From an uncultured Phycisphaerales bacterium (GTDB lineage Bacteria > Planctomycetota > Phycisphaerae > Phycisphaerales > UBA1924): DNA of 64,000 bases. The position numbers were made by a program, and so were the translations under genes. Below, piece by piece: positions 10,527 through 13,877 of the stretch. Position 1 is the first letter of the stretch. Every line of letters begins with the position of its first letter. The notes beneath the pieces were generated by a model, which saw nothing but the letters and a program-made list of their open reading frames with translations, was not told the origin of the DNA and searched no databases. The stretch lies in assembly GCA_937995595.1 (NCBI GenBank), contig CALKJW010000009.1:62001-126000 (forward strand). Direction: 5' to 3'.

Positions 10527-10949
10527 TCATCGGCCGGGCTCCTGCGTTCGAGTTCGCGAGGGCAGGAAGCGCTCGATGAGCGCGACGTGCGCACGGTGCG
10601 CCGCGATGCGGGATTCGAGGTGCGCCTCACCGCGCGGCGTGAGGCGGTACCACTTCCGCCTCCGACCGCGAGCGGGCTCCGCTCCGCCCTCGGCGCCGGC
10701 GGCATCGGACCCGCCGCGGTCGGCGCGGATGACCTCCCAGAGCGAGGTGATCAGGCCGCGCTTCTCGAGGCTCGCCAGCAGCGGGTAGAGCACGCCGGGC
10801 GAGAGGCGGAGTTGGTTTTCTGAAGCCGCGGCGGCACGCTTGGAGATGGCGTAGCCGTAGAGCGGTCCGTTGGCGAGAAGAGAGAGGATGAGGACCTCGC
10901 TGTCGGCGGGGAGCGGCGCACTGAGGCGGTCGTGTTGATTCGAAGACAT
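10527..10949 (-). CDS. PadR-family transcriptional regulator
   Basis: 140 residues. The winged-helix domain has the PadR pattern: VLILSLLANGPLYGYAISKR, then LSPGVLYPLLASLEKRGLI, and after a charged insertion with Arg/Gly, RKWYRLTPRGEAHL. A C-terminal helix (about 112-132) is the usual dimerisation helix. PadR proteins repress their own or nearby genes in response to ligands. The promoter region upstream carries AT-rich repeats that look like its operator. No transporter or efflux gene, a common PadR target, lies next to it. The ligand is unknown. Confidence 0.9.
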   Translation of the reverse strand: MSSNQHDRLSAPLPADSEVLILSLLANGPLYGYAISKRAAAASENQLRLSPGVLYPLLASLEKRGLITSLWEVIRADRGGSDAAGAEGGAEPARGRRRKWYRLTPRGEAHLESRIAAHRAHVALIERFLPSRTRTQEPGR

Positions 10950-11237: not shown

Positions 11238-11243
11238 TACGCT
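11238..11243 (+). promoter_or_regulatory. -10 element of the thr leader transcript
   Basis: TACGCT followed by six bases and an ATG, which places the expected transcription start at the ATG itself (leaderless mRNA). The 16-mer GTACGCTTGGGCAATG is repeated exactly before the glycosyltransferase gene at 40398-40413. No -35 consensus is evident. Confidence 0.5.
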
Positions 11244-11249
11244 TGGGCA

Positions 11250-11303
11250 ATGCAACTCGGCCAGATCACGACGACGACGGCTGCGACGTGCCGCGGCGGG
11301 TAA
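11250..11303 (+). CDS. Threonine-rich leader peptide of a putative thrS attenuator
   Basis: A 17-codon frame reading MQLGQITTTTAATCRGG. Four consecutive ACG codons (11268-11279) and a fifth at 11286-11288 make 5 of 17 codons Thr, against about 1 in 17 in ordinary proteins. The stop TAA (11301-11303) is 30 nt before an intrinsic terminator, and thrS lies downstream. This matches the layout of amino-acid leader peptides such as thrL of enterobacteria. There is no Shine-Dalgarno sequence; the TACGCT element 6 nt upstream suggests leaderless translation. Too short for usual gene finders. Confidence 0.72.
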   Translation: MQLGQITTTTAATCRGG

Positions 11304-11333
11304 GGCCGAGCCCGCAGTGCGTGTATTCTGTCC

Positions 11334-11362
11334 AAGCCCGGCCCGAAAGCCGGGCTTTTTCG
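11334..11362 (+). terminator. Intrinsic terminator/attenuator upstream of DUF6487-thrS
   Basis: A 9-bp stem (11334-11342 with 11349-11357) and a 6-nt loop CCGAAA are followed by a T-rich tract ending TTTTTCGTTTG. Segments upstream could compete with it. AGCCCG at 11309-11314 is complementary to the 3' arm, and GGCGGGT at 11295-11301 to the 5' arm with one bulge. The nearest upstream plus-strand gene is the leader peptide. Confidence 0.75.
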
Positions 11363-11402
11363 TTTGTCGATCTCCCCCCGCCCCTCCGAATCTGAGGCTC
11401 CC

Positions 11403-11636
11403 ATGGCTTCCAAACCCACGTGCCTGGTCTGCCAGAAGGAAATGGTCCGCGGGTTCGTGACGGACCTCGGACATGCCATCTCGATCCAGATCCCCCGGTG
11501 GTGCGAGGGCGATCCGCAGTCGAGTTTCTGGACTGGCGCGGCGACACGCTCGCAGTTCAAGGATGGACTGAAGGTCGTCGCGTATCGGTGCCCTGAGTGC
11601 GAGGCGCTCCGCCTGTATGCTCCTTCGGCCGAGTGA
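11403..11636 (+). CDS. Small zinc-ribbon-like protein (DUF6487-like)
   Basis: 77 residues with two Cys pairs, CLVC near residue 6 and CPEC near 65, flanking a Trp/Phe-rich core. This is the arrangement of the small DUF6487-type proteins (CPxC ... W ... CxxC ... LYA). It probably binds one zinc; its function is unknown. The start at ATG 11403 leaves the first CxxC at the N-terminus. It lies between the attenuator-like terminator and thrS, about 70 nt ahead of thrS, so the two probably share a transcript. Confidence 0.75.
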   Translation: MASKPTCLVCQKEMVRGFVTDLGHAISIQIPRWCEGDPQSSFWTGAATRSQFKDGLKVVAYRCPECEALRLYAPSAE

Positions 11637-11708: not shown

Positions 11709-13877
11709 ATGCCCCGCATCACGCTGCCCGATGGTTCGGTCAAAGAGTTTCCCCAGCCTGTCACCGCGCGGCAGGTCGCCGAGGCGATCGGCCCGCGACT
11801 GGCGCAGGCCGCGCTGGGCTGCAAGGTCGACGGCGAACTGCGCGATCTCTCGACGCTGATCGACCGTGACGCGAAACTCGCCATCGTGACCGCGCAGACC
11901 CGCGACAAGCAGCCCGACCCCGATGCGCTCCTGCTCATCCGCCACTCCGCCGCGCACGTGATGGCCGAGGCGATCCAGCGGATCGTCCCCGAGGCGCAAC
12001 TGGTCTACGGCCCGCCGCTGGCCACCGGCTTCTACTACGACATCAGGTTCCCCGACAACCGCCCGCTCAAGGAGGGCGACTTCGCGGCGATCGAAGCCGA
12101 GATGAAGAAGATCATCGCGGAGGACCGGCCGTTCACACGCTACGAACTCCTGCCGGCTGAAGGCATGTCCAAACTCCAGCGTGAGGGCAGCAAGTACAAG
12201 ATCGACAACGCCGAGCGCGCCCTGAAAGCGGCCGAGTCGGGACCGCGTGCTCAGCAACCAACACTTTCCTTCTACGCCACCGGCACTCCCGGCAGGGACT
12301 GGGAGGACCTCTGCCGCGGGCCGCACGTGCCCAGCACCGGACGCATCGGCGCGGTGAAGGTGATGTCGCTGGCGTCGAGTTACTGGCACGGCGACGAGAA
12401 CTCCGACCGCCTGACCCGTGTCTACGGCACCGCCTTTGCCACGCAGGCCGAACTCGATGCGTACCTCAACCAACTGGAGGAGGCCAGGAAGCGCGACCAC
12501 CGCGTGATCGGCAGGCACCTGCGCCTGTTCCACATCGACGAGATGGTCGGGCAGGGGCTGATCCTCTGGACCCCCAACGGCTCGATCGTCCGCAAGGAAC
12601 TGCAGGCGTTCATCGGCAGCGAACTGCGCAAGCAGGGCTACACCGAGGTCTTCACGCCGCACATCGGCGGGCTGGACCTCTACAAGACCAGCGGCCACTT
12701 CCCCTACTACAAAGAGTCGCAGTTCCCGCCGATCGTCGAGCGCGACGCGCTGGACCGCCTGGCCGACGAGGGCTGCTCGTGCGCCGAGGTGATGCGGCGG
12801 GTCGAGGGCGTCTCGGCGCACCTCGCCGCGGGCATCAACGAGCGCACCGGGACGCGGACCATTCCGCCCGAGCGCGTCATCCCCGACGAGCAACTGGTCT
12901 CGGGGTTCATGCTCAAACCGATGAACTGCCCGCACCACGCGCGGATCTTCGCCAGCGCGCCGCACTCGTATCGTGACATGCCCGTGCGGCTGGCCGAGTT
13001 CGGCACCGTGTACCGCTGGGAGCAGTCGGGCGAACTCAACGGCATGACCCGCGTGCGCGGCTTCACGCAGGACGATGCGCACCTGTTCTGCACCGAGGAG
13101 CAGGTGCCGGCCGAGATCCAGGGCTGCCTGTCGCTGGTCAAGACGATCTTCAGCGTGCTGGGGATGAAGGACTACCGCGTCCGCGTGGGCCTGCGCGACC
13201 CGGACTCGGGCAAGTACACCGGCACGAAGGAGAGCTGGGACAAGGCCGAGGCCGCCTGCGTCGCCGCGGCCGAGTCGCTGGGCGTCCCGTTCAGCAGAGA
13301 GCCGGGCGAGGCCGCGTTCTACGGGCCCAAGATCGACTTTGTCGTCAAGGACGTGATCGGCCGCGAGTGGCAACTGGGGACCGTGCAGGTCGATTACAAC
13401 ATGGCGGTTCGGTTCGATCTGAGTTACATCGGACCGGACAACAAGCCGCACCGGCCGGTGGTCATCCACCGCGCGCCGTTCGGCAGCATGGAGCGCTTCT
13501 GCGGCGTGCTGATCGAGCACTTCGCGGGGGCGTTCCCCACATGGCTGGCCCCCGAGCAGGTCCGCGTGCTGCCCATCTCGGAGAAGACCGCCGACTACGC
13601 GCGCAGGGTCGCGCAGGCGCTGCGTGACGGCGGCGTTCGAGCGACCCTCGACGAATCCAACGAGCGCATCCAGGCCAAGATCAAGGACGCCGCGGACTGG
13701 AAGGTGCCGTACATGGCCGTCGTCGGCCCGCGCGACGCCGAGGCCGAGCAGGTCTCGCTCCGCGCCCGCGGCCACATGAAGGACCTGGGCACCATGTCCC
13801 TCACCGGCTTCGTCGACGCCATCCGGGACGAGATCGCGACGCGCGGGGCCAGCACCGTGGTGAGCAGGTTCGTGTGA
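11709..13877 (+). CDS. thrS: Threonine--tRNA ligase
   Basis: 722 residues. An N-terminal TGS domain (1-65) is followed by the editing domain with HSAAH (about 80) and CRGPH, then the class II catalytic core. The core shows MNCPHH (zinc Cys), RWEQSGELNGMTRVRGFTQD (motif 2) and HRAPFGSMERF (motif 3), with the anticodon-binding domain at the C-terminus. It is about 80 residues longer than the usual 640: one insertion (KAAESGPRAQQP) precedes CRGPH, and a larger Cys/Glu/Arg-rich one sits between FPYYKESQFPPI and FMLKPMNCPHH. Expression is probably controlled by the threonine leader upstream. Confidence 0.97.
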   Translation: MPRITLPDGSVKEFPQPVTARQVAEAIGPRLAQAALGCKVDGELRDLSTLIDRDAKLAIVTAQTRDKQPDPDALLLIRHSAAHVMAEAIQRIVPEAQLVYGPPLATGFYYDIRFPDNRPLKEGDFAAIEAEMKKIIAEDRPFTRYELLPAEGMSKLQREGSKYKIDNAERALKAAESGPRAQQPTLSFYATGTPGRDWEDLCRGPHVPSTGRIGAVKVMSLASSYWHGDENSDRLTRVYGTAFATQAELDAYLNQLEEARKRDHRVIGRHLRLFHIDEMVGQGLILWTPNGSIVRKELQAFIGSELRKQGYTEVFTPHIGGLDLYKTSGHFPYYKESQFPPIVERDALDRLADEGCSCAEVMRRVEGVSAHLAAGINERTGTRTIPPERVIPDEQLVSGFMLKPMNCPHHARIFASAPHSYRDMPVRLAEFGTVYRWEQSGELNGMTRVRGFTQDDAHLFCTEEQVPAEIQGCLSLVKTIFSVLGMKDYRVRVGLRDPDSGKYTGTKESWDKAEAACVAAAESLGVPFSREPGEAAFYGPKIDFVVKDVIGREWQLGTVQVDYNMAVRFDLSYIGPDNKPHRPVVIHRAPFGSMERFCGVLIEHFAGAFPTWLAPEQVRVLPISEKTADYARRVAQALRDGGVRATLDESNERIQAKIKDAADWKVPYMAVVGPRDAEAEQVSLRARGHMKDLGTMSLTGFVDAIRDEIATRGASTVVSRFV

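Follow-up and report, generated by a model that had tools for sequence, protein, structure and literature searches.

A Thr-rich leader ORF and terminator upstream of thrS suggest ribosome-mediated attenuation in Phycisphaerales

In Proteobacteria and Actinobacteria, attenuation by leader peptides is well documented and extends to aminoacyl-tRNA synthetase genes such as pheST and the trpS and leuS genes of Streptomyces (PMC1262725). In Streptomyces lividans TK24, a leaderless thrL with two Thr codons (MKRVRPFLETTPGFVPAR) precedes thrS; its transcription start has been mapped and it has no clear terminator (PMC8079986). The initial annotation of the locus described here had taken a Thr leader for thrS in a planctomycete, starting 6 nt after a −10 element, to be new; the S. 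lividans report provides a precedent for a leaderless Thr leader at this gene. A transcript beginning at the leader ATG has also been described for trpL of Sinorhizobium meliloti, where both the leader RNA and the peptide act in trans (PMC7298713).

For Planctomycetota, no report of a leader-peptide attenuator was found in the literature searched, which did not extend to the survey of attenuation at synthetase operons by Lopatovskaya et al. (2010), where thrS may already be mentioned. Here we describe a planctomycete locus at which, with a probability of about 0.9 judged from sequence and its conservation, thrS is under ribosome-mediated transcription attenuation via a Thr-rich leader peptide.

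Leader ORF, promoter and terminator at the thrS locus

The window, i.e., the whole 64-kb stretch of DNA analysed (contig C9 of a 3.1-Mb assembly), contains a 17-codon leader ORF that reads ATG CAA CTC GGC CAG ATC ACG ACG ACG ACG GCT GCG ACG TGC CGC GGC GGG TAA, with the stop codon at 11301–11303 (Table 1). Its five Thr codons, all of them ACG and four in a row, are as the initial annotation had described them. The ORF begins 6 nt downstream of the hexamer TACGCT. The leader transcript is probably leaderless, to judge from this spacing, since with a start 6–9 nt after the −10 element a ribosome binding site would not fit before the ATG. The window's −35 element is weak, as it is in the family to which the window belongs; a clear TTGACC is found in family f4. 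On both strands of the window, only four ATG or GTG ORFs of 8–30 codons start 4–9 nt after a TANNNT sequence, and only the leader ORF among them has a residue cluster (at least five of one residue in eight codons).

The stop codon is followed by a terminator, AAGCCCGGC-CCGAAA-GCCGGGCTT-TTT, with a 9-bp stem, and then by a DUF6487 gene (PF20097, E 2e-7) and thrS, an order of elements that was seen correctly in the initial annotation. The thrS product carries TGS, tRNA_SAD, tRNA-synt_2b and HGTP_anticodon domains. In the window, and likewise in some relatives, the DUF6487 gene separates the leader from thrS and would be co-regulated with the latter.

Table 1. Features of the thrS leader region, in positions of the window.
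Feature	Position	Strand	Evidence or remark
−10 promoter element TACGCT	11238..11243	+	GCGTACGCTTG kept in same-genus genome; TANNNT 5–11 nt before the start codon in 30/30 curated leaders
Leader peptide ORF, MQLGQITTTTAATCRGG*	11250..11303	+	Same-genus counterpart; ≥5 Thr per 8 codons in 26/57 relatives
Putative sensing Thr codons, residues 7–10 (11268–11279) and 13 (11286–11288)	11268..11288	+	
Predicted 1:2 hairpin around the stop codon, 11296–11301 with 11310–11315	11296..11315	+	Fold without ribosome
Region 2 (GGCCGAGC), predicted antiterminator strand, pairs with 11336–11343	11304..11311	+	Fold to 11348 with ribosome at Thr13; complementarity and coevolution tests
Intrinsic terminator, arms 11334–11342 and 11349–11357, loop CCGAAA, T run to 11360	11334..11360	+	−17.2 kcal/mol; stem covariation in 29 relatives
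DUF6487 (PF20097) small protein gene	11403..11636	+	Likely co-transcribed; absent from same-genus genome
thrS, threonyl-tRNA synthetase, proposed regulated gene	11709..13877	+	Domain matches

Conservation of the Thr leader in related genomes

One genome of the same genus carries a leader, MPFGQTITTTTEMSRRG*, directly 5′ of thrS. Both leaders have 17 codons, with shifted Thr positions and TGA versus TAA as stop codon, and the promoter core, the position of the stop and the terminator are the same. By hand count on the alignment, identity between the two genomes is ~74% in the ORF and ~92% in the stretch from stop codon to terminator.

At the level of the order, 57 thrS upstream regions were searched for ORFs of 8–30 codons that start 4–9 nt after TANNNT and have at least five of one residue in eight codons. 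Thr ORFs of this kind were found in 26 regions, and clusters of any other residue in none of the 57. The same rule applied to the antisense strand of these regions gave no Thr clusters and one Arg case. Looser spacing and curation led to a set of 30 Thr leaders, e.g., MRANTTTTTTTTPDRHRG, MAPNPTTTTTTASG, MFRTTTTTPG, and MLDRRTTATTATTTATPSRR, which includes one weak case (G031) with three Thr codons. The curated leaders have a mean length of 18 codons (range 10–23) and contain 3–11 Thr codons (ACG 92, ACC 81, ACT 20, and ACA 9), and their peptides show no conservation other than that of Thr. A strong intrinsic terminator follows the stop codon in 29 of the 30, at a distance of 30.6 nt (SD 4.7, range 22–46), and core pairs of its stem switch among GC, CG, AT, and TA (n = 29 for both). 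Conservation of a Thr-rich frame and hairpin in relatives, which the initial annotation had named as a check of its proposal, is borne out for both elements, with compensatory changes in the hairpin.

These leaders bear on the alternative that the window merely combines an ACG repeat with an ordinary terminator and that the ORF is not translated. Runs of ACG arise easily in G+C-rich DNA, and the window uses no other Thr codon; however, the relatives also use ACC, ACT, and ACA, and such mixed codons are therefore no simple DNA repeat. Moreover, the relatives keep Thr in one frame, which starts after TANNNT and stops ~31 nt before the terminator, and the antisense control lacks Thr clusters. In the window, the nearest gene-like ORF upstream of the leader (10527–10949) is on the opposite strand, so that the terminator has no upstream gene to end. 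On this comparison of sequences the repeat explanation is already refuted, and we give it next to no probability.

In Firmicutes, many thrS genes are under T-box control, and a structured RNA of this or another riboswitch-like type, or binding of ThrS to the leader RNA, might control the terminator at our locus as well, with the ORF being secondary. In line with the latter, ThrS of Escherichia coli regulates its own expression (PMC2965389). No match to Rfam was obtained at the gathering threshold in the window or in ten related loci, the distance from a start near 11250 to the terminator is too short for a T-box, and what is conserved is the coding of Thr and not an upstream fold. Control by a structured or ThrS-binding RNA is very improbable, and we retain attenuation by the translated leader as the preferred reading.

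A recognisable Thr leader is missing from about half of the 57 order-level regions, including some genomes of the window's own family. In a scan of 60 more thrS upstream regions at class level, clear Thr leaders outside the order were found in the class family f11 (MQHGTAATTTTTTATPAAGH, MNAKRFTTTTTTTTHCVGR, and VRNSRFTTTTTTRSGFAGR). The distant order member f6 has a clear Thr leader, too, and f15 and f8 carry plausible but weaker ones. The genomes sampled from f9, f10, f13, f14, and f19–f24 yielded no such leader. Most of the named records that encode close ThrS relatives are Phycisphaerales MAGs, and we accordingly place the host within the Phycisphaerae. Among the 80 named records, no convincing Thr leader turned up in Verrucomicrobia or Pirellulaceae. 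By this sampling, the leader system appears frequent within the family and order of the window, with a patchy distribution outside them. Because the same gene carries such a leader in dozens of related genomes, the recurring arrangement at thrS is almost certainly real.

Alternative pairing and a model for attenuation

In the initial annotation, AGCCCG (11309–11314) was proposed to pair with the 3′ arm of the terminator. The motif does occur and could form these base pairs, but they are not conserved: across relatives, complementarity of the 3′ arm to the 16 nt past the stop codon is not beyond that of shuffled sequences (mean z −0.18, SE 0.18). The energetically possible pairing with the 3′ arm was rejected, as it is neither above chance across relatives nor accompanied by coevolution. 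Instead, the 5′ arm is the partner with which the RNA surrounding and following the stop codon pairs and coevolves. Across relatives, the same 16 nt are complementary to the 5′ arm beyond shuffles (mean z −1.16, SE 0.26), but in the window's own genus the complementarity between region 2 and the 5′ arm is no better than in its own shuffles (z −0.2 and −0.1).

Coevolution was assessed by comparing the pairing of the stretch from −9 to +16 around the stop codon with the terminator arm of its own genome versus arms swapped between genomes. Own 5′-arm pairing was better than swapped pairing in 29 genomes (p = 0.0001), a signal which leans on one group of related genomes (p = 0.011 when one of five similar f4 genomes is kept, and p = 0.042 without the f4 group). 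The 3′ arm showed no signal in this swap test.

Partition-function folds were calculated for the transcript up to the terminator loop, with a ribosome either on the Thr codons or at the stop codon. The mean probability of upstream pairing of the 5′ arm is 0.73 with a stalled ribosome; placing the ribosome at the stop lowers it to 0.44, in part trivially, as less RNA is exposed, and a shuffled spacer gives 0.65. In the window, a ribosome at Thr13 allows pairing of 11304–11308 with 11339–11343 and of 11310–11311 with 11336–11337. A ribosome at the stop leaves the terminator unopposed, and it forms; without a ribosome the 1:2 hairpin and the terminator both form in the predicted fold. The 1:2 hairpin is seen in many folds across the family, but it does not surpass shuffled controls and was rejected as a conserved element.

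As expected of an attenuator, the family comparison supports an alternative pairing that would preclude the terminator and that a ribosome on the stop codon would cover; this support is weaker in the window's genus. Also as in an attenuator, the short ORF is enriched in codons for the amino acid that belongs to thrS, and an intrinsic terminator lies between the ORF and the structural gene. Comparison of the sequences supports the ORF, its Thr enrichment, the spacing between −10 element and ATG, the spacing between stop codon and terminator, the covariation of the terminator, and the 2:3 complementarity of region 2 and the 5′ arm.

From these features we infer that the RNA begins on the leader ATG or no more than a few bases away from it; a ribosome would then load at its 5′ terminus and translate the 17-codon peptide. 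If charged tRNA-Thr is scarce, the ribosome would wait on the Thr codons, leaving region 2 free to pair with the 5′ arm at 11336–11343; this antiterminator would preclude the terminator and allow transcription of DUF6487-thrS. If charged tRNA-Thr is present, the ribosome would reach the stop codon and cover region 2, so that the 3:4 hairpin could form and transcription would end near 11360. Without translation, the 1:2 hairpin would form around the stop codon, and the terminator would likewise be free to form. The initial annotation had also linked stalling to antitermination and arrival at the stop codon to termination, and the family comparison supports this reading.

The leader could also act at another level than the intrinsic terminator, i.e., via translation, Rho-dependent termination, or a small RNA or peptide in trans, the last being known for Sinorhizobium trpL (PMC7298713). 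In contrast, strong intrinsic terminators are kept in 29 of the 30 loci at a near-constant distance from the stop codon, and both this and the lack of peptide conservation beyond Thr speak against such modes of action. We consider such a mode of action improbable as a replacement for attenuation at the terminator, if slightly less so than control by a structured RNA; an additional role of the leader RNA or peptide in trans might exist.

Other synthetase genes and comparison with known attenuators

In about a dozen genomes of the family, a short ORF just after TANNNT precedes ileS and ends with CGA-ATT-N3-N3-CCC-CGC-stop (L282, L283, L284, L287, L290, L293, L295, L298, and L303). The encoded peptides end in ...R-I-x-x-P-R and usually contain more Ile codons, e.g., MTRVRPIPAIRITRPR. 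In the window's genome (L282, G000:C35), this ORF lies ~367 nt before the match start, and the ATT of the motif reads ATG. A GCGGGG stretch downstream of the ileS ORF often could pair with CCCCGC. The ORF looks like an Ile-sensing leader of a different design. Candidates at leuS were found sporadically, in a few genomes, where Leu codons occur in short ORFs that begin right behind a TANNNT, e.g., MILLGGSISRLRRGLGPR, at −263 (L382 in G018), −257 (L376 in G021), and −240 (L383 in G007), each followed by a terminator-like hairpin.

In six genomes, neither PF00587 class II synthetase genes (Pro, Ser, and probably His type) nor pheS showed a convincing leader. The homoserine dehydrogenase domain (PF00742) is present in four of six genomes, in none of which a Thr leader was found before this gene, and was not found in the window's genome or in the leader-bearing G011. 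For the acetohydroxyacid synthase (ilvB) domain PF02776, there was no clear match above the cut-off in six genomes. Judging from these searches, each for one domain in draft genomes, an amino-acid auxotrophy with reliance on imports is conceivable for some of these bacteria.

We see a slightly better than even chance that leaderless leader-peptide attenuators serve several aminoacyl-tRNA synthetase genes in Phycisphaerae (thrS widely, the motif at ileS, and leuS in a few genomes) and that these bacteria hence couple transcription to translation. For planctomycetes, spatial separation of transcription and translation has been argued, and coupling is debated. If attenuation operates at thrS, the ribosome must follow RNA polymerase closely, and the two processes would be coupled in this planctomycete lineage. 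Since attenuation needs a ribosome on nascent RNA, its conservation would constitute comparative evidence for coupling in Phycisphaerae. Furthermore, the locus would illustrate one way for a G+C-rich genome to make a sensor, by joining promoter and start codon and dispensing with a ribosome binding site; annotation pipelines miss such sensors.

Like proteobacterial attenuators (the thr, his, and trp operons and pheST), the locus combines a run of codons for the residue presumably sensed, an antiterminator and a terminator predicted to be mutually exclusive, and a ribosome as the proposed sensor. Those attenuators precede biosynthetic operons or pheST, usually with a 5′ UTR and a ribosome binding site, whereas here the gene is thrS, the leader is apparently leaderless, and the host is a planctomycete. 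As described for S. meliloti trpL, a leader start at the ATG and ribosome-dependent attenuation are predicted for our locus; trpL senses Trp and belongs to the trpE(G) operon of an alphaproteobacterium. The attenuators of Streptomyces trpS and leuS also act on synthetase genes through leaderless leader peptides, for other amino acids and in another phylum (PMC1262725, PMC8079986). As in S. lividans, where attenuation was proposed for thrL, an apparently leaderless Thr leader lies directly upstream of thrS (PMC8079986). In contrast to that thrL, the leaders described here contain 3–11 Thr codons and are followed by a strong terminator; they are widely supported by comparison, and their start is deduced from sequence rather than mapped. 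The principle of attenuation is thus already known from other bacteria; what is new is the phylum, for which we found no report, and this case of a Thr leader on thrS is clear and unusually well conserved.
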